Assembly (NCBI RefSeq): GCF_001306135.1
Contig: NZ_LGKP01000008.1
Span: forward strand, 62,001-126,000
From: Herpetosiphon geysericola
GTDB lineage: Bacteria > Chloroflexota > Chloroflexia > Chloroflexales > Herpetosiphonaceae
DNA: 64,000 nucleotides
Direction: 5' to 3'
Shown here one piece after another: positions 251 to 47,587 of the stretch. Both the position numbers and the translations under genes were made by a program. Within the stretch, counting starts at the first letter, position 1. Every line of letters begins with the position of its first letter. The notes below the pieces were generated by a model that saw nothing but the letters and a program-made list of their open reading frames with translations, had not been told where the DNA came from and made no database searches.

Positions 251-1363
251 ATGGTCAAGCGATTGCAGCATCAAGTTTTGAGTCAACGCGCCTTAAATCG
301 GGCCTTGTTGGGGCGCCAACATTTGTTAGAGCGGGTGCGTGGTTCAGTGTTGGGCTTGATTGATCAGCTCGTTGGAATGCAAGCCCAAGCCCCAAATCCA
401 CCCTATGTTGGCTTGTGGTCACGCTTGCATGGCTTTGAGCAGCAGCAATTATCAACTCTGTTTGAACAGCGCCAAGTTGTGCGAATTGCTCTGATGCGTT
501 CGACAATTCATTTGGTGAGTGCCAGCGATTGCCTTAACCTGCGGCCATTATTGCAGCCAGTTTTGGAGCGCGGCTTTCAATCGAATTTTGGCAAGCAACT
601 GCCTGGCATCGACAAGGCAGCCCTGATTGAATTTGGAAGGCATTTGCTTGAAACTCAGCCGCAAACGTTTCAAGCGCTTGGTGGCTTGCTGCACGAGCGT
701 TGGCCCGATTATCCGGCGGCAGCTTTGGCTCAAGCATTACGCACTTGGTTGGCGTTGGTGCAAGTGCCACCGCGTGGTTTATGGGCTACCAGCGGGCCAG
801 CGGCGCATACTATCGCTGAGCAGTGGTTGGGCCAGCCTTTAGCAAGCGCACCAGATTTGGCCCAATTGGTGCGGCGCTACTTGGCGGCCTTTGGTCCAGC
901 CAGTATCAACGATATGCAAGCATGGTCGGGGTTGACGCGTTTGGGCGTGGTTTTCAAGCAACTGCAAGCAGAATTGATCTGTTTCTGCGATGAGCAAGGC
1001 CGCGAATTGTACGATTTAGCTGCTGCGCCACGTCCCGACCCAGCAACGCCAGCGCCGCCAAGGCTACTGGCTGAATTTGACAATATTTTGCTAGCGCACG
1101 CTGATCGAACTAGAATTTTGAGCGAAGCCTATCGTCAACGCCTTTTTACTAGCAATGGCCTTATTCCCGGGGCGATTTTGGTTGATGGCTTTGTGGTAGG
1201 CATGTGGAAAATCAAACAGCCAGAATCAAGCCTGCACTTGCAGCTGTTCGAGCCAATTGCCAAGGCTGAACGCCAAGCGTTGGAGCACGAAGCAGCCAGT
1301 TTGCTACACTTTGCAACCAACAGCAATGAGCCGATTATTCAGTTTGCAGAACATAGAGCATAG
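251..1363 (+). CDS. Winged-helix DNA-binding protein, AlkZ-like (HTH_42 family)
   Basis: A 370-residue protein with the hallmarks of the HTH_42 family (COG3214), which includes the AlkZ and YcaQ DNA glycosylases. Residues 37-58 (IDQLVGMQAQAPNPPYVGLW) correspond to the segment that carries the glycosylase motif. Here it reads Q-A-Q (residues 44-46), the QxQ form found in AlkZ-like proteins, rather than the QxD of YcaQ. Later parts (IALMRSTIHLVS; LLAEFDNILLAHADR) also fit the family. The known role of active members is excision of bulky or crosslinked alkylated bases; activity here is inference. The ATG at 251 has AGGAG at 241-245. The gene stands alone, diverging from the lipoprotein gene. Confidence 0.8.
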   Translation: MVKRLQHQVLSQRALNRALLGRQHLLERVRGSVLGLIDQLVGMQAQAPNPPYVGLWSRLHGFEQQQLSTLFEQRQVVRIALMRSTIHLVSASDCLNLRPLLQPVLERGFQSNFGKQLPGIDKAALIEFGRHLLETQPQTFQALGGLLHERWPDYPAAALAQALRTWLALVQVPPRGLWATSGPAAHTIAEQWLGQPLASAPDLAQLVRRYLAAFGPASINDMQAWSGLTRLGVVFKQLQAELICFCDEQGRELYDLAAAPRPDPATPAPPRLLAEFDNILLAHADRTRILSEAYRQRLFTSNGLIPGAILVDGFVVGMWKIKQPESSLHLQLFEPIAKAERQALEHEAASLLHFATNSNEPIIQFAEHRA

Positions 1364-1380
1364 CTGTTGGCGGATACCTT

Positions 1381-1402
1381 TGACGCAGAGCCGCAGAGTT
1401 AA
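1381..1402. repeat. Single module of the dispersed GCAGAG repeat
   Basis: The segment TGACGCAGAGCCGCAGAGTTAA matches, in either orientation, the CTGCG-CTGCGTTAAC modules seen in the repeat clusters at 12.4-13.8 kb and 47.3 kb. It stands alone here, 17 bases after a stop codon. Confidence 0.5.
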
Positions 1403-3145: not shown

Positions 3146-3423
3146 AGTGTTTTCCTATCCATCAAGCCATAGCCAAATAGCCCATGGCCGATTCATCAAA
3201 CACCATCCGCTGCCGTTGCCATCTCGACCCAGCTTGAGGCTTGCAACCAGTGGTGTTTTTTGAAGAATTCTCAGCATCTAGCTGAGCCAAAAGGTTGGTC
3301 TAGTGTAGCAGTAAATAGCCTAGCTAGCAATATAGCTAGGCTGGTAATTTTGGGCTTGCTAGCAAACACTTTTAGGGTTTGCGGGGCTTGATAGTGGCTG
3401 ATTTTGGCTAATCGCAACAATTT
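3146..3423. other. Intergenic region with a hairpin and a possible promoter
   Basis: No gene is visible. A perfect 10-bp stem (3317-3326 with 3333-3342, loop of 6) sits in the middle. On the minus strand, TGCTACACT at 3310-3302 resembles an extended -10 element and could drive the STAS sensor gene that starts at 3145, giving a leader of about 150 bases. Confidence 0.35.
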
Positions 3424-3452
3424 CCCCGCGCCTGAATGTAGTAGGCGCGGGG
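3424..3452 (-). terminator. Terminator-like hairpin after the beta-glucosidase gene
   Basis: A perfect 10-bp GC-rich stem (CCCCGCGCCT with AGGCGCGGGG, loop of 9) lies 28 bases beyond the stop codon at 3480. The minus-strand tail is AAATTGTTG, so the T-tract is weak. Confidence 0.5.
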
Positions 3453-3479
3453 ATTGGGACTGAGGGAATTTGCTAAAGC

Positions 3480-5013: not shown

Positions 5014-6129
5014 ATGAGCATGCTGATGGATGAGAATTTTATGCAGGCAGCGCTCGCACAAGCCAATTTGGCGCTTGGCCGCACGAGTCCCAATCCGGCG
5101 GTGGGCGCAGTGGTTGTGCAGGCTGGGCAGCTTGTTGGGCGTGGCCATACTCAACCGCCGGGCCAGGCCCATGCAGAAGTCATGGCCTTGCGCGAGGCTG
5201 GCGATCTGGCTCGTGGCGCAACGCTGTATGTTACGCTTGAGCCATGCACAATTTGGGGTCGCACGCCGCCATGCACCGATGCGATTATCGCCGCAGGCAT
5301 TCGTGAGGTCGTGATTGCTGCGCGCGATCCCAACCCGCGTTTCGAGCACGATGCAGCGAGCGTGCTCCAAGCCGCAGGCATTCTGGTGCGCTTTGATCAG
5401 GCTGCTGAAGCTGCGGCCATCGCTCAAACCGAGGCCTTTCGGCATTGGATTGTGACTAAACAGCCGTTTGTAACGGTTAAATATGCCATGAGCCTTGATG
5501 GCAAAATTGCCACCCGCACAGGCGATGCGCGCTGGATTAGCGGCCCAGCCTCACGCCAAAAGGTGCATGAATTGCGTGACCAAACTGATGCGATTTTAGT
5601 TGGCATCAACACGGTACTTGCTGATGATCCGCTTCTGACGACGCGCTTGGCGCAGCATTGGCGACCAGTGCAACACCCGCTGCGGATTGTGCTCGATGCG
5701 CGAGGCCGTATGCCTGCGAGCGCGGCGATGTTGGCAGATCAAGTTCCTGGAACAACCATTATCGCTACAACCGCCGCTGCCAGTGCCGAATGGCGGGCCA
5801 GCATCAGCAACGCTGAAATTCTGGAGTTGCCAAGCAATTCTGAAGGGCGGGTTGCGCTTGATGCTTTGTTGCGTGAGCTAGGCCAGCGTGATATTAGTTC
5901 GTTGTTGGTTGAGGGCGGCGGCGAAACGATTGCCGCGTTTTTGGCGATGCAGGCAGTGCAGAAATTACAAGTTGTGATTGCGCCTAAAATTATTGGCGGC
6001 GTTGCGCCAAGCCCAGTTGGCGGCGTTGGTATTGCGCGCATGAATGAGGCCCAGTTGTGGCAATGGAGCGCAAGTGAACAAGTTGGGGCCGATATGTGGC
6101 TCACAGCCTATCCCAACCCGCAGGTATAG
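5014..6129 (+). CDS. ribD: Bifunctional riboflavin deaminase/reductase
   Basis: Two enzyme domains of riboflavin synthesis are fused in one protein of about 371 residues. The N-terminal cytidine-deaminase fold has the zinc motif HAEV and PCTIWGRTPPC, and deaminates the pyrimidinedione precursor. The C-terminal reductase (from KYAMSLDGKIATRTGDARWI, with VGINTVLADDP) reduces the ribosyl side chain with NADPH. A -10-like TATTAT at 4987-4992 argues against in-frame starts further upstream; ATGs at 5014, 5020 and 5026 are all possible and none has a strong ribosome site. No other rib gene and no FMN riboswitch is visible nearby, so ribD is separated from its pathway partners. Confidence 0.95.
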   Translation: MSMLMDENFMQAALAQANLALGRTSPNPAVGAVVVQAGQLVGRGHTQPPGQAHAEVMALREAGDLARGATLYVTLEPCTIWGRTPPCTDAIIAAGIREVVIAARDPNPRFEHDAASVLQAAGILVRFDQAAEAAAIAQTEAFRHWIVTKQPFVTVKYAMSLDGKIATRTGDARWISGPASRQKVHELRDQTDAILVGINTVLADDPLLTTRLAQHWRPVQHPLRIVLDARGRMPASAAMLADQVPGTTIIATTAAASAEWRASISNAEILELPSNSEGRVALDALLRELGQRDISSLLVEGGGETIAAFLAMQAVQKLQVVIAPKIIGGVAPSPVGGVGIARMNEAQLWQWSASEQVGADMWLTAYPNPQV

Positions 6130-6283
6130 CAATGTAAACCTTGGAGCTATGATTTTCCTGTTGATACTTGTCCCTGCTCAACCTAGTCAGCATGTAACGC
6201 AATGTAAACCTTGGAGCTATGATTTTGCTGTGGCTGCTTGTCCCTGCTTAATCTAGCTCTAATGTAAATCAATGTTCACCTTG
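6129..6283 (+). repeat. 70-bp tandem repeat (2.2 copies) with ATGTAA boxes
   Basis: A unit starting GCAATGTAAACCTTGGAGC repeats with a 70-base period (6129, 6199, then a partial and diverged copy from about 6269). At the unit junctions the box ATGTAA recurs 10 bases apart: 6192-6197 and 6202-6207, then 6262-6267 with the variant ATGTTC at 6272-6277. Spacing of one helical turn is typical of tandem binding sites for a dimeric regulator. The repeat lies directly upstream of the -10 element at 6325. Confidence 0.75.
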
Positions 6284-12360: not shown

Positions 12361-12930
12361 GTGGCTGCTCTAGGCAGTTTTTAACTCGAGGGATCAGGGA
12401 CGAGGGAGAGCGAAACCGCGAAGCATGCGAAGATCGCGAAGGTTAAGTTTTGAGCCACGAATTCCTCGAATGATATTGTGTTAGCCACAGATTTATTTCT
12501 CGCCAGCCAATAGCCATATTTCTCTGCGCCGCTGCGTTAACAAATTGCTCCACGAGGCTTGAAACCGCGAAGAACACGAAGATCGCGAAGGTGAATTTTT
12601 TAGCCACAGATTGGCACAGATGATTATGATTATGTTCTTCCTAACCCAATGCTCATAGCCAACAGCCCTCACTACTCTGCGCCGCTGCGTTAACAAATTG
12701 CTCCACGAGGCTTGAAACCGCGAAGAACACGAAGATCGCGAAGGTGAATTTTTTAGCCACAGATTGGCACAGATGATTATGATTATGTTCTTCCTAACCC
12801 AATGCTCATAGCCAACAGCCCTCACTACTCTGCGCCGCTGCGTTAACAAATTGCTCCACAAGGCTTGAAATCGCGCAGGACGGGCAGGCCACGAAGAATG
12901 TTTCTAGCCACAGATTGGCACAGATTTTCC
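12361..12930. repeat. Repeat cluster with a 153-bp tandem array
   Basis: Non-coding. A unit of 153 bases is repeated about 2.2 times (equivalent points at 12531, 12684 and 12837). Each unit contains four modules in order: CTGCGTTAACAAATTGCTCC, GCGAAGAACACGAAG, TTTTTAGCCACAGATTGGC and a spacer with CTAACCCAATGCTCATAGCC. Further single modules flank the array. The two full units are nearly identical, which points to recent duplication. Because 153 is a multiple of three, a spurious open frame runs through the array on the minus strand. Confidence 0.85.
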
Positions 12931-13049
12931 TGATTAGGCTTCCGATTGCTCAAATCCTCCAGCAAAAGCCCCTGACCCGTAGCCCTATGCTGCCTTTTGA
13001 TTTTTGCCTTTTGATTTGCCCTATGCTCTTACATTTTATCCCTCATCCT

Positions 13050-13583
13050 TCATCCTTTTTGGTTTGCTTCCCATTCCGAGCGCAACATGCCCATTTGCAG
13101 CACATCGACATACTGACCATTGTTGAACACATGCTCGCGCAAACGTCCTTCGTGCACAAAGCCACATTTTTCATACGCAGCGATTGCGCGGGGATTATTG
13201 CTATCGGTCATCAGCCAGATGCGGCGATAATTTTGAACGCGAAAAGCCCAGCGCAACAAAACCTGAATCGCATCGCTGCCATAGCCTTTGCCAACATAGT
13301 CGGGGTGATAGACCGCGACGCCAAATTCGCTGGTGCGGCTTAGTTGATCGGTGTGGTGTAAGCCAATTGAGCCAATCACCACGCCCTCAACCTCGATCAC
13401 AAACCACAATTTTTCGGTAATTTCAAGGTGTTTTTCAAAGCGTTTTTCGAAGCTCGCCAAAGGCATGGGCGACCACGTGCCGTTGCCATGGATCACCAGT
13501 TCAACATTCTTTTCTAGTTCGTACAAGGCTTTGCTATCTTCACGCTCGATTGGGCGTAGGGTTACGAGTTTGCCTTTTAGCAC
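13050..13583 (-). CDS. GNAT acetyltransferase, RimJ/RimL type (copy 1)
   Basis: A 177-residue GNAT enzyme that transfers acetyl from acetyl-CoA to an amine. The acetyl-CoA loop is in YVGKGYGSDA (R/Q-x-x-G-x-G/A type, here GKGYG), followed by WAFRVQNYRRIWL and the segment NPRAIAAYEKCGF typical of RimJ/RimL-like members. The start is a GTG at 13583 with AGAAAGGAG 7 bases before it; a further upstream GTG would read through this ribosome site. Identity with the neighbour at 13833-14378 is about 80 percent by eye, so they are a tandem duplicate. The substrate is unknown; ribosomal-protein or antibiotic acetylation are both possible in this family. Confidence 0.88.
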   Translation of the reverse strand: MLKGKLVTLRPIEREDSKALYELEKNVELVIHGNGTWSPMPLASFEKRFEKHLEITEKLWFVIEVEGVVIGSIGLHHTDQLSRTSEFGVAVYHPDYVGKGYGSDAIQVLLRWAFRVQNYRRIWLMTDSNNPRAIAAYEKCGFVHEGRLREHVFNNGQYVDVLQMGMLRSEWEANQKG

Positions 13584-13599
13584 AGCTAGGCTCCTTTCT

Positions 13600-13832
13600 G
13601 ATTGATCCACGAAGCGCACGAAGGGCTATGGGCTTTTGGCTTTTGGAATCAGTGCCATACCACCAAATGTTCTGCTAGCCCAAAGCCTCAATTCTCTGCG
13701 TCTCTGCGTTAACAAATCACTCCACGAGGCTTGAAACCGCGAAGAGCGCGAAGAACATGAAGGCTATGGGCTTTTGGCTATAGGCTATGAGCTTTTGCCT
13801 TCTGCCTTTTGATTTTTGCCTTTTGCTTTGTT
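13600..13832. repeat. Repeat modules between the two GNAT genes
   Basis: Holds a further copy of the CTGCGTTAACAAAT-TCCACGAGGCTTGAAACCGCG core (13693-13745), CACGAAG modules (13609-13625) and low-complexity CTTTTG/GCCTTTTG runs (13770-13850). The same modules make up the cluster at 12.4-12.9 kb. Confidence 0.7.
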
Positions 13833-14378
13833 CTATGCTCTTTGTTCTATGCCCTGCTTCGTTTCCCATTCCGAGCGCAACATACCCATTTGAATGAGAT
13901 CGACAAAGCGGCCATTTTCAAATACATGCTCGCGCAAACGGCCTTCGTGCACAAAGCCACATTTTTCATAAGCGGCGATAGCGCGGGCATTGTTGCTGCC
14001 AGTCGTCAGCCAGATGCGGCGATAATTTTGAATGCGGAAGGCCCAGCGCAACAAAACTTGAATTGCATCGCTGCCGTAGCCTTTGCCAACATAATCGGGG
14101 TGATAAATCCCAATCCCGAATTCGCTGCATTGCGCAACCCGATCACCATGATGGAGGCCAATCGAGCCAATCACGACCCCATCAACTTCAATAATAAATT
14201 GATTTTTTTCTGAGCCTTCGATGTATTTGTCGAAGCGTTTTTCGAAGCTGGCCAATGGGGTTGGCGACCATGTGCCATTTCCATAGATCACCAGTTCGAC
14301 ATTTTTCTCTAGTTCGTATAATGCTTTGCTATCTTCACGTTCGATCGCGCGGAGGGTGACTAATTTACCTTTTAGCAC
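13833..14378 (-). CDS. GNAT acetyltransferase, RimJ/RimL type (copy 2)
   Basis: A 181-residue paralogue of the 13050-13583 product with the same GTG start. Here AGAAGGAG lies 8 bases before the GTG at 14378. The acetyl-CoA loop YVGKGYGSDA is identical. Differences cluster in residues ~50-95, the likely acceptor-substrate side, while the cofactor half is almost unchanged; this hints that the two copies may differ in substrate. The last residues (TKQGIEQRA) extend beyond copy 1. A -10-like TATACT on the minus strand at 14417-14412 could be its promoter. Confidence 0.88.
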   Translation of the reverse strand: MLKGKLVTLRAIEREDSKALYELEKNVELVIYGNGTWSPTPLASFEKRFDKYIEGSEKNQFIIEVDGVVIGSIGLHHGDRVAQCSEFGIGIYHPDYVGKGYGSDAIQVLLRWAFRIQNYRRIWLTTGSNNARAIAAYEKCGFVHEGRLREHVFENGRFVDLIQMGMLRSEWETKQGIEQRA

Positions 14379-14535
14379 GCTGATTACTCCTTCTAGGCTA
14401 AAGCTTGGGCTAGTATAGGCCCGATTCCGCAGCTGCCTATCCATCAGAAGGTTGATTAAAGCCTCAGGCTTGCTACCGACAAGCCACATGAGCATATTTA
14501 ATAATGAGAATAATAAATATTTTTTAATAAATCTC

Positions 14536-14613: not shown

Positions 14614-16245
14614 ATGAATAACGATAAACGCTCTTTTTTCGGTTCTCGCTTAATGTTGCGGGTCATTTTGATTTTGGCCATCTGTGCAGTTGTTGTGCCG
14701 CTCTTTACCAGCAAGGCATCGTATGCAGCTGCAACGCCACGCCGGCCTTTTCCGCAGCATACCCAATATGCAAGCGGCACGATTAAGCCCAATCATCGCA
14801 CCCAAGCCCAACTTGATAGCGATGTTAAAGCCTTTTACGATGTCTGGAAAAGCCGCTATGTGGTGCGAGCTGGCACGAGTAGCGCTGGCAATCCCTACTA
14901 TCGGATCAGCTTTGGCAGCAGCGCGCCCAACGTGACAGTTTCTGAAGGTCAAGGCTATGGCATGGTCATTATGGCCTTGATGGCTGGCTATGATCCCGAA
15001 GCGCAAACTATTTTTGATGGCTTATGGGAATTTTCGCGTACTAATCCAAGCAACATCGATTCGCGCTTGATGGGCTGGCGGATTCCTAGCGATGGCTCTG
15101 GCAACGATAGTGCTTTCGATGGCGATGCTGATATTGGCTATGGCCTGATTTTGGCTGATGCCCAGTGGGGGAGCAGTGGTCGTATCAATTATGCCAGCGC
15201 AGCCAACACTGTTTTAGCAGGCGTTTTAGAATCGACAATTGGCCCAAGCAGCCGCTTGCCAATGTTGGGCGATTGGGTTTCGCCAAATGGCAGCCCTCAT
15301 AGCCAATACACGCCTCGGCCTTCTGATTTTATGCCCAGCCACTTTCGCGATTATCGGGCTTTCACTGGCAATGCCACATGGGATACAGTGCTGAGCAAAA
15401 CTCAAGGCGTTGTTGATAGTATTCAAGCCCAATATAGCCTCAATACTGGCTTGCTGCCCGATTTTGTGGTACAGGCCAACACTACGCCCAAGCCATCGCC
15501 TGCCAACTTCTTGGAAAGTGAAAATGATGGTAATTACTACTACAATTCAGGCCGCGTGCCTTGGCGCTTAGGCGCCGATGCAGTGCTTTTTGGCGATGCT
15601 GCTTCATTACGCCAAGCTCAAAAAATCTCACGCTGGATTGAGCAAGCGACTGGTGGAACAGCAACCAATATTCGGGCTGGTTATACGCTCAATGGCACGG
15701 CCTTGCCCGATAGTGGCTATTTCAGCACCTTCTTTGCAGCGCCATTTGGGGTGGCAGCGATGACCGTGCCGACCAGCCAGCAATGGCTTAATCGGGTGTA
15801 TGATGCAGTACGTAGCAATCACCAAGATTATTTTGAAGATACAGTGACCTTGCAATGTTTGCTGCTCATGTCGGGCAATTATTGGTCGCCAAGCCGTACT
15901 GGAGTTAGCCCAACCGCCACCCCGCGCCCTGCGACGGCAACGCCACGACCAGCAACCGCCACCCCGCGCCCTGCAACAGCAACCCCACGGCCAGCAACGG
16001 CAACTCCAGTATCAGCGACAGCAACGCCACGGCCTGCCACCGCCACGCCACGGCCAGCAACGGCAACGCCAGTGCCAGCGACAGCTACCCCAAGCGGCGT
16101 TCCAGCTTGGAATGGCAACATGCAGGCTTATGCAGTAGGCCAACGAGTGAGCTACAACGGGCGCATCTATCGCTGTTTGCAAGCCCATACTTCACTATCA
16201 ACATGGACACCTGAGGCGGTGCCAGCCTTGTGGCAAGCTGAATAA
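14614..16245 (+). CDS. Secreted glycoside hydrolase family 8 enzyme with CBM5-type domain
   Basis: A 543-residue exported enzyme. A signal peptide covers residues 1-40 (basic start, hydrophobic core, ASYAAA end). The GH8 catalytic domain (~50-425) has Glu111 in VSEGQGYGM, the expected general acid, and the Asp cluster AFDGDADIGYG. GH8 enzymes invert beta-1,4 linkages in cellulose, chitosan, xylan or lichenan; which one is not clear here. A linker of about eight TPRPATA-like heptads (~435-492) joins a C-terminal domain of about 48 residues (AWNGNMQAYAVGQRVSYNGR...YRCLQAHTS) typical of CBM5/12 chitin- or cellulose-binding modules. A chitosanase or endoglucanase acting outside the cell is the best guess. 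It has its own promoter and terminator. Confidence 0.9.
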   Translation: MNNDKRSFFGSRLMLRVILILAICAVVVPLFTSKASYAAATPRRPFPQHTQYASGTIKPNHRTQAQLDSDVKAFYDVWKSRYVVRAGTSSAGNPYYRISFGSSAPNVTVSEGQGYGMVIMALMAGYDPEAQTIFDGLWEFSRTNPSNIDSRLMGWRIPSDGSGNDSAFDGDADIGYGLILADAQWGSSGRINYASAANTVLAGVLESTIGPSSRLPMLGDWVSPNGSPHSQYTPRPSDFMPSHFRDYRAFTGNATWDTVLSKTQGVVDSIQAQYSLNTGLLPDFVVQANTTPKPSPANFLESENDGNYYYNSGRVPWRLGADAVLFGDAASLRQAQKISRWIEQATGGTATNIRAGYTLNGTALPDSGYFSTFFAAPFGVAAMTVPTSQQWLNRVYDAVRSNHQDYFEDTVTLQCLLLMSGNYWSPSRTGVSPTATPRPATATPRPATATPRPATATPRPATATPVSATATPRPATATPRPATATPVPATATPSGVPAWNGNMQAYAVGQRVSYNGRIYRCLQAHTSLSTWTPEAVPALWQAE

Positions 16246-47186: not shown

Positions 47187-47587
47187 GTCGAGGGGTCAGG
47201 GGCTAGTTGTTAGGGGTCAGGAGCGCAACATGAAGAACATAGACCATAGAACATAATCCTACGAATCTGTGCCAATCTGTGGCTAAAAAACGGAGCCTTC
47301 GTGCCCTTCGTGTTCTTCGTGGATCGAATATTTAACGCAGCGGCGCAGAGCACGAAAGGATGAGGGATGAAGGATGAAGAAGGATCAGGGCTCAGGGGCT
47401 TGGCTATTGACATTTGGGAACACAATCCTACAAATCTGTGGCTAAAAAACGGAGCCTTCGTGTCCTTCGTGTTCTTCGTGGATCGTTCTTCGCTGCTTTT
47501 GTAGTTTCTGACCCCTTATGGTCTATGATCTGATACCTGCGACAAGCATTGACACAGCCACATGCGATACTAGCAGCAGAAAGACCA
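47187..47587. repeat. Second dispersed-repeat cluster
   Basis: Non-coding. Two copies of a block ATCCTAC-AATCTGT...GTGGCTAAAAAACGGAGCC followed by TTCGTG-CCTTCGTGTTCTTC (47257-47326 and 47425-47485) flank a TTTAACGCAGCGGCGCAGAG module (47330-47349) and a GATGAGGGATGAAGGATG run (47358-47380). Most modules are the reverse complements of those at 12.4-13.8 kb, so the family is modular and occurs in both orientations. No gene is seen. Confidence 0.75.

Follow-up and report, generated by a model that had tools for sequence, protein, structure and literature searches.

Short intergenic repeats are common, and to our knowledge few mechanisms for their spread are known, the best-studied of which involve a transposase. 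MITEs are small, non-coding elements with inverted ends and many copies. The STRR of Nostoc are heptameric tandem repeats that occur at high copy in single-word arrays.

REP, REPIN and BIME sequences, which go with RAYT (TnpA-REP) transposases, are presented in parts of two accounts as short extragenic repeats found in several phyla in hundreds of copies, as inverted pairs with a variable spacer and as mosaics of units (PMC3116915, PMC3733652). Heptanucleotide long simple sequence repeats (LSSR) and TAACTGA direct repeats are described, in the portions of the source used here, from Beggiatoaceae, Cyanobacteria and Bacteroidetes (PMC4679880; Mrazek 2007 is cited there). The GGGAATC and GGGGAYT G-rich heptamer repeats of Xanthomonas and Nostoc are likewise tandem and high in copy number, in a report of which the relevant part studies intergenic regions (PMC4692102).

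The window, a stretch of 64,000 nucleotides from a Herpetosiphon (Chloroflexota) genome available as a 6.14-Mb draft in 46 contigs (G000, hereafter the own genome), spans 62001–126000 of contig C45 and carries a tandem array of 153-bp units beside two GNAT acetyltransferase-like genes. This array is one composite of a genome-wide, non-coding, intergenic repeat family built of short words. It forms a small part of a wider word system, shared by many phyla, which the original prediction had missed.

The array and composites of the window

The 153-bp tandem array that had been predicted is recovered by TRF as 2.7 copies at 12522–12925 (plus strand), with a blastn self-match one unit away of 99% over 201 bp. 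It lies within composite 1 (12417–13055, plus strand), which a word scan reads as B+ F+ E- B+ A+ i- E- B+ A+ i- E- A+ g- f-, a plus sign denoting a word in the form written in the vocabulary list. The unit consists of an E- word (CTCTGCGCCGCTGCGTTAA, reverse complement TTAACGCAGCGGCGCAGAG; minus strand, 12522–12540, 12675–12693 and 12828–12846), B+ words, including a B-type word of three 7-mers with 2-base linkers (CGCGAAGAACACGAAGATCGCGAAG; plus strand, 12566–12590 and 12719–12743), an A+ word (CACAGATTGGCACAGAT; plus strand, 12605–12621, 12758–12774 and 12909–12925) and a tail with an i- word.

The modules were also said to recur, and the word scan places them at 13.6–13.85 kb, reversed at 47.24–47.48 kb and singly at 1384–1398. 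Composite 2, between both GNAT genes, reads B+ i+ g- E- B+ i+ g- h- (13608–13851, plus strand); composite 3, in reverse orientation, reads h+ A- B- E+ f+ B- (47238–47480, minus strand); and a small composite at 1352–1398 (plus strand) holds h+ (1352–1364) and E+ (1384–1398). The window has 33 word matches, whereas shuffling it three times in 3-base blocks leaves 2, 2 and 5. The description of these repeats as modular, with no transposase inside and no classical terminal repeats, is supported. The modules listed are real, each being two to three copies of one 7-mer with 1–3 free bases between copies, but the list was too narrow, omitting words of period ~7 (GGATGAA, GTCAAAA, CATAGAA, GGCTATA, GGGGTCA and their complements). 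Matches of the array locus elsewhere in the own genome are at most 89% identical among those listed (40 of 533 candidates scored).

A search for RNA structure, as the original prediction proposed, gave a good fold for a stretch of composite 3 on the plus strand only (z -4.5 and 0.66). The 153-bp unit has no advantage over its shuffled versions (z 0.92 and 0.07), and 48 own composites, some of them counted twice, are as a group folded no better than 41 word-free gaps. Composite 2 has z values of -0.12 and -1.54, and the window has no Rfam match at gathering score.

Other small repeats occur in the same region. A 70-bp tandem repeat of 2.3 copies (82% match) lies at 6124–6283, where the alignments of G001, G003 and G005 break and G002 has related sequence. 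Inverted repeats resembling CCCTCACCCC...GGGGTGAGGG are present in relatives at window ~3410–3476 and past the gene ending near 16245; they form another intergenic hairpin family, in which content varies at the same site.

Vocabulary, unit number and word order

Within the own genome, module B (CCACGAAGNNCACGAAGG, the CACGAAG word) is found at 950 places with up to two mismatches, module C, which is word E (CTCTGCGNCNCTGCGTTAA, the CTCTGCG word), at 338 places with up to two mismatches and module A (AGCCACAGATTNNCACAGATT, the CACAGATT word) at 150 places with up to three. Control patterns read backward are found at 7 (B), 0 (E) and 0 (A) places. The predicted modules are thus abundant elsewhere in the genome. 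The sampled loci yield a vocabulary of period 8–10 words, namely CACGAAG and CGCGAAG (B), CGCAGAG (E), CACAGATT (A) and CACGAATT (F), and of period ~7 words, namely GGATGAA (f), GGCAAAA or GTCAAAA (g), CATAGAA (h), GGCTATA (i) and GGGGTCA (j). The main words are 7-mers of the form CRCRRAK, set in small groups, usually of three or fewer, with free linkers, and joined by the period ~7 words. Mechanically called ORFs of at least 100 aa contain 24 of 473 word matches in the own genome and 58 of 260 in other genomes.

The composites of the own genome come from 100 loci picked via E, B and A word matches, a non-random sample with 76 distinct composites; the 23 removed were checked to be the same loci seen twice. 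Counts by gene pair, of folds and in the first word-order analysis include some composites twice where loci overlap.

Arrays of one word are short. Exact arrays in the own genome have one unit in 145 cases, two in 64 and three in 72, and with one mismatch per unit allowed there are 71 of two units, 102 of three and one of four. At other loci, which were chosen for three units, 98 arrays have two units, 257 three, 8 four, and one each five and six. Three units are present in 275 of 284 distinct cross-genome arrays, found with a pattern that itself demanded three. In G207, a genome of the same order and another family, all four arrays of two loci (L458, L459) have four units, and a five-unit run occurs in G283, so that unit number varies between lineages. 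The four-unit CACGAAG arrays of G207 are accompanied by a different 7-mer (GGTGACA in L459), which indicates a shared style with a different vocabulary.

Simple tandem-repeat slippage, as proposed for the heptanucleotide repeats of other bacteria, would fit the perfect period-7 repeats of several words, the growth of one composite into a 153-bp tandem and the longer arrays of G207 and G283. It is nevertheless an improbable explanation of the family. More than three units are rare (0/281 exact arrays in the own genome, 1/174 with mismatches, 10/365 elsewhere), and the linkers within an arm usually differ, being identical in 15/124. Nor does slippage predict the polarity or the order of different words. 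Between paired arms, linkers agree in 18/62 outer and 16/62 inner positions (8.9 and 8.5 when shuffled), far below what a recent inverted duplication would lead one to expect. The spacers between paired arms, of 6–178 bp, look unrelated by eye (60 of 62 pairs).

The words follow a recurrent order of E-, B+, F+, A+, pyrimidine 7-mers and E-. Across the 76 distinct composites, counted on both strands, the commonest neighbours form a cycle of E- B+ (33), B+ F+ (23), F+ A+ (20), B+ A+ (22), A+ i- (23), i- E- (22) and f- E- (19), and the 153-bp unit is one turn of the cycle.

The edges of composites are also polar. Among 74 distinct multi-word composites of the own genome, the signs of the first and last words are +- in 65, ++ in 8, -- in one and -+ in none. 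The +- composites open with purine words and close with pyrimidine words, the reverse being found in 0/74, and, words aside, the left half is purine-richer than the right in 64/72 distinct composites versus 15/41 word-free gaps. Polarity is kept between tandem (53/57), convergent (15/18) and divergent genes (19/22), some composites being counted twice. It is unchanged by reverse complement, and therefore belongs to the site rather than to transcription. The two ends of a Herpetosiphon composite usually bear different words, same-word inverted pairs being rare.

Composites at orthologous sites

In relatives that are ~90% identical, most composites are present at orthologous sites, usually differently worded. 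The sites that could be located are few (8/11, 7/29 and 11/25) and a minority in some pairs. Going from G000 to G004, eight of eight located sites are occupied, none with the same word string, between flanks that are 90–96% identical; the composites are alignable over a mean of 55% at these eight sites, with sites 79898 and 110143 at 100% and 97%. In the opposite direction, five of seven are occupied. Occupancy is 3/3 from G000 to G002 and 4/4 in return, 7/7 from G003 to G005 (three with the same string), 9/11 from G005 to G003 (three with the same string) and 1/1 in either direction between G000 and G001. At greater distance sites can be empty, one of two being occupied from G000 to G005 and none of one from G000 to G003.

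Single sites illustrate the changes. At one, G003 has (GTCAAAA)n (g+..g-) and G005 (GGATGAA)n (f+..f-), each with a matching right arm and both with the same left junction. At another, the own genome and G004 carry different terminal words directly before an identical right flank. The composite 2 site is differently worded in G002 and G004, and that of composite 3 has other words in G004. The composite at 1.35 kb reads h+ E+ in G000 and G004 and h+ i+ in G002, with no word in the G001 stretch shown.

Long near-identical copies are absent from the own-genome sample: none of 1957 between-locus alignments of at least 60 bp among 72 distinct composites reaches 95% (best 94.5%), and those of at least 100 bp are at most 87.7% identical. 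Shorter near-identical stretches exist: in four alignments of 40 bp or longer, identity is 97% or higher. Composites that change faster than their flanks and have no near-identical long copies suggest exchange in short tracts. Judged from these alignments, the content of composites at long-lived places seems to be rewritten faster than the surrounding sequence changes.

G003 at ~222.2 kb and G005 at ~222.3–223.0 kb (joined stretches) contain small reading frames in tandem, in which, by eye, a stretch resembling FGLTYLEEEAAEIEDIVGC recurs; they may encode a family of small precursor peptides.

The GNAT locus

Two putative GNAT acetyltransferase-like genes, which keep the name given in the original prediction, are placed from ORFs and comparison, copy 1 at 13050–13583 and copy 2 at 13833–14381, both on the minus strand. 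They had been called almost identical, which is not borne out: over 175 aa of protein they are 81.7% identical, and over 526 bp of DNA 80.4%. As copy 2 is 81.8% identical in protein to the GNAT of G001 (H. aurantiacus), about the same distance, the pair is old.

Copy number at the site differs among relatives. G001, G003 and G005 have one GNAT each, the genome of the window two and G002 three, while the three GNATs of G004 are spread over two contigs; in G003 and G005 the gene is ~10 kb away in a rearranged order. GNAT copies are each separated by a composite, and G002 has a composite ahead of each of its three. The extra GNAT of G002 and G004, 64–66% identical to window copy 2, lies between two composites, in a position that the array alone takes up in the window. 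No remnant of it was detected in the window array by blastn, and the G002 composite to which this array aligns comes after the extra 66% GNAT. The alignments of all five relatives stop at window 12365/12366, up to which the shared sequence runs ...TTTTGTGGC.

In the simplest reading of these alignments, an exchange between two composites would have removed the extra GNAT in the lineage of the window, and the 153-bp unit would then have been duplicated locally. The earlier proposal that recombination between repeats duplicated the GNAT gene holds in part, in that copy number varies and composites lie between copies; against it, the pair is old and the clearest event is a probable loss. Recombination between repeats is nonetheless a likely cause of the change in copy number. 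Two contigs of G004, C43 (L367) and C122 (L366), end inside or beside composites of the GNAT locus, and the repeats thus seem to break that assembly.

Distribution and candidate machinery

Three exact CACGAAG units with free dinucleotides were searched for in species-representative genomes, giving at least 118 stretches. Judged from record names, many of them those of metagenome bins, the 80 that were listed fall in about 13 phyla: Pseudomonadota, Desulfobacterota, Schekmanbacteria, Planctomycetota, Acidobacteriota, Verrucomicrobiota with Kiritimatiellae, Nitrospinota, Sumerlaeota, Cyanobacteria, Auribacterota, Hydrogenedentota, Chloroflexota and Gemmatimonadota. One stretch, in Bradyrhizobium (L141), looks like coding sequence. 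IMG/VR contigs, in which virus and host sequence are unsorted, hold 119 stretches with the word. Over 284 distinct arrays from genomes and IMG/VR contigs, the border consensus is TTTMAC ahead of the first unit and A-rich sequence past the last. A 35-base query with one choice of linkers matched none of 50,697 phage records, none of 20,395 E. coli records and four of 72,556 plasmid records, in a blastn search whose word size of 11 can overlook arrays in which the linkers differ. Searches of the open-licence PubMed Central literature turned up no description of these words.

Edge polarity extends to these genomes. Distinct neighbouring CACGAAG arrays at most 150 bp apart are +- in 98 cases, ++ in 13, -- in 7 and -+ in 7. 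Other CRCRRAK words give 235 matches, compared with 13 for a letter-reversed control; their neighbours are +- in 16 cases, -- in 8, ++ in 4 and -+ in none, and the same word is on both arms in 14/16.

Among Chloroflexota, the triple word, with one mismatch allowed, is present in 22/301 genomes and 11/179 genera. The 22 are mostly Herpetosiphon (6) and members of family f13 (9), and matches range from 135 to 259 per genome in the six Herpetosiphon genomes with 0 in a sister-genus genome (G073).

The polarity of the arms and the independence of their linkers would both be explained by a telomerase- or reverse-transcriptase-like enzyme that extends the two 3' ends of a double-strand break with purine-rich words, joining of which then leaves a scar. 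One case would suit this model, a lone CACGAAG array of G005 (194469–194493, joined stretch) that is bracketed, by eye, by a 30-bp near-duplicate of its own flank. The model is very improbable all the same. Ku is found in 0/22 triple-word genomes versus 82/279 others, without correction for kinship, and Ku end joining was rejected. Reverse transcriptase was rejected as a necessary factor: RVT_1, present in 15/22 word-bearing and 99/279 other genomes (uncorrected for kinship), is missing in 7/22, among them G207 with 87 matches.

A second explanation regards the words as selected, putative sites at which a conserved factor binds DNA or RNA, with a nucleoid, terminator, insulator or uptake role, where the interior turns over and the composite persists as the function is needed. 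In its favour, the 7-mers are fixed while linkers vary, units are few and sites are retained with changed content. The word is also enriched between convergent genes in other genomes (27/84 vs 37/244, p = 0.001). When a terminator role was examined in the own genome, however, no such enrichment was seen, and its composites are not depleted between divergent genes (22/99 vs 3/22) and fold no better than word-free gaps. The marked differences in presence among relatives, from the hundreds of matches in Herpetosiphon to their absence from G073 and from most Chloroflexota, also argue against a conserved function. Selection of binding sites is on this evidence unlikely.

The composites might instead be non-autonomous REPIN- or MITE-like elements, with inverted ends of TTTMAC and CACGAAG units, moved by a transposase encoded elsewhere. 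Paired arms that face inward and carry the same word, the TTTMAC border and the hundreds of copies are all consistent with this. So is the recurrence in family f13 of a similar consensus with similar linker sets at unrelated loci, which looks like the ordinary dispersal of a copied element. Paired arms covary slightly outside the word, and flank pairs share at least 7 bases somewhat more often than in shuffled pairing (15/93 vs ~7), an excess that may stem from pairing flanks across genomes of different composition. By contrast, no target duplication was found at a fixed offset: across 3,388 combinations of length and offset, the best was a 4-mer in 5/111 elements. Composites of the own genome have no excess of flank repeats, and spacers look unrelated by eye. 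Furthermore, the closest pairs of genomes keep the presence of a site more than its content, the reverse of what transposition predicts.

As for a transposase, Y1_Tnp is present in 19/22 word-bearing versus 101/279 other Chloroflexota genomes (uncorrected for kinship), an excess that favours a mobile element. It is absent at E ≤ 0.001, however, from G002 and G004, with ~250 word copies each, and from G103, with three. The own genome and G001 have one match each, both with an in-frame TGA, G003 has two and G005 one. Weak two-unit matches lie at six of 50 Y1_Tnp loci (20 of these in word-bearing genomes), with no clear array; one of the six is within one mismatch and inside an ORF (L473). A RAYT/Y1 transposase was therefore rejected as the mover in Herpetosiphon. 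Y1, Ku and reverse transcriptase genes are each dispensable for word-rich genomes. A mobile element is a rather doubtful source of the composites, although it and selected binding sites are both serious rivals to rewriting of composites in place. Two Y1_Tnp loci of f13 (L462 and L463) have palindromes of their own nearby, such as GCACGGTGGTTAATCACCGTGC in L462, which are unlike the CACGAAG word.

Discussion

Any explanation has to account for the abundance of the words, their order, polarity and small unit number, their free linkers and the retention of sites with changed content in the pairs compared. We tentatively favour, at somewhat less than even confidence, a model in which composites persist for long at their intergenic sites while their words are replaced one by one where they stand, probably through template switching over short tracts. 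In this model, a 3' end entering a composite from either edge would pause during repair or replication. It could then anneal by a few bases to a word elsewhere, copy roughly 10–40 nt and switch again. Repeated switching would extend each edge inward with purine-rich words, while longer exchanges between words would duplicate or delete what lies between them, as with the 153-bp unit and the GNAT copies. The copying step, the length of the tract and the absence of a dedicated enzyme are what we infer from the sequence comparisons.

Several observations count against rewriting by template switching. None of the rewritten words could be traced to a donor. Much of the content is kept at some sites, among them G000 79898 and 110143 as compared with G004, the three of seven G003/G005 sites with the same word string, and the 1.35-kb composite, h+ E+ in both G000 and G004. 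The empty sites at greater distance, the small number of located sites, the linker recurrence in f13 and the short near-identical stretches also fit it poorly. In addition, that a word common to ~13 phyla keeps to a narrow unit number suggests a specific reader, something not expected from passive switching. A bolder proposal, which we consider decidedly unlikely, is that a hitherto unrecognised DNA-writing activity common to these phyla sets a few purine-rich CRCRRAK 7-mers with untemplated two-base linkers, inward at each edge of a site, and rewrites them repeatedly, a process that would be neither transposition, slippage nor gene conversion.

A word that occurs in ~13 phyla, in few units of a fixed 7-mer with free linkers between them and with strict edge polarity, at persistent sites whose letters change, is a poor fit to known mechanisms. 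It points to a local process of DNA rewriting, or to a reader of the word, that has not been recognised before. In practical terms, contigs of one assembly end at composites, which also lie where gene copy number changes, as at the GNAT locus.

Inward, same-word arms in other phyla recall the terminal inverted repeats of MITEs but have differing linkers, and the ends of Herpetosiphon composites usually differ in their words. Unlike MITEs, the composites show no fixed target duplication, and their interiors look unrelated by eye.

As far as the parts of the accounts drawn on here describe them, REP and REPIN sequences share with the word system an extragenic position, high copy number, a mosaic make-up of units, occurrence in several phyla and inverted pairs of fixed polarity around a variable spacer, the polarity being evident in other genomes from the 98 +- and 7 -+ neighbours (PMC3116915, PMC3733652). 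They differ in that the units here are direct 9-bp repeats and not palindromes, and in that the border has no GTAG or CGTC tag. Moreover, Y1_Tnp is lacking from two word-rich genomes, Y1_Tnp genes are not flanked by the repeat, linkers are free and content changes at retained sites.

The heptanucleotide repeats of Beggiatoaceae, in the sections of that source used here, are similar in being intergenic, genome-wide, built of 7-base words and present in distant phyla with no evident vector (PMC4679880). Here, however, several words occur in a recurrent order and polarity, and the main word has a period of 9, free linkers and few units. For the G-rich heptamers of Xanthomonas and Nostoc, the relevant part of the report describes single-word arrays with no composite order or edge polarity (PMC4692102). 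Identical tandem 7-mers in open-ended number, which characterise LSSR and STRR, do not describe the main word, whereas words f–j, of period ~7, do resemble such repeats. In copy number and paired polarity the word system is like REPINs, and in unit size like heptamer repeats, yet it departs from the defining features of both.
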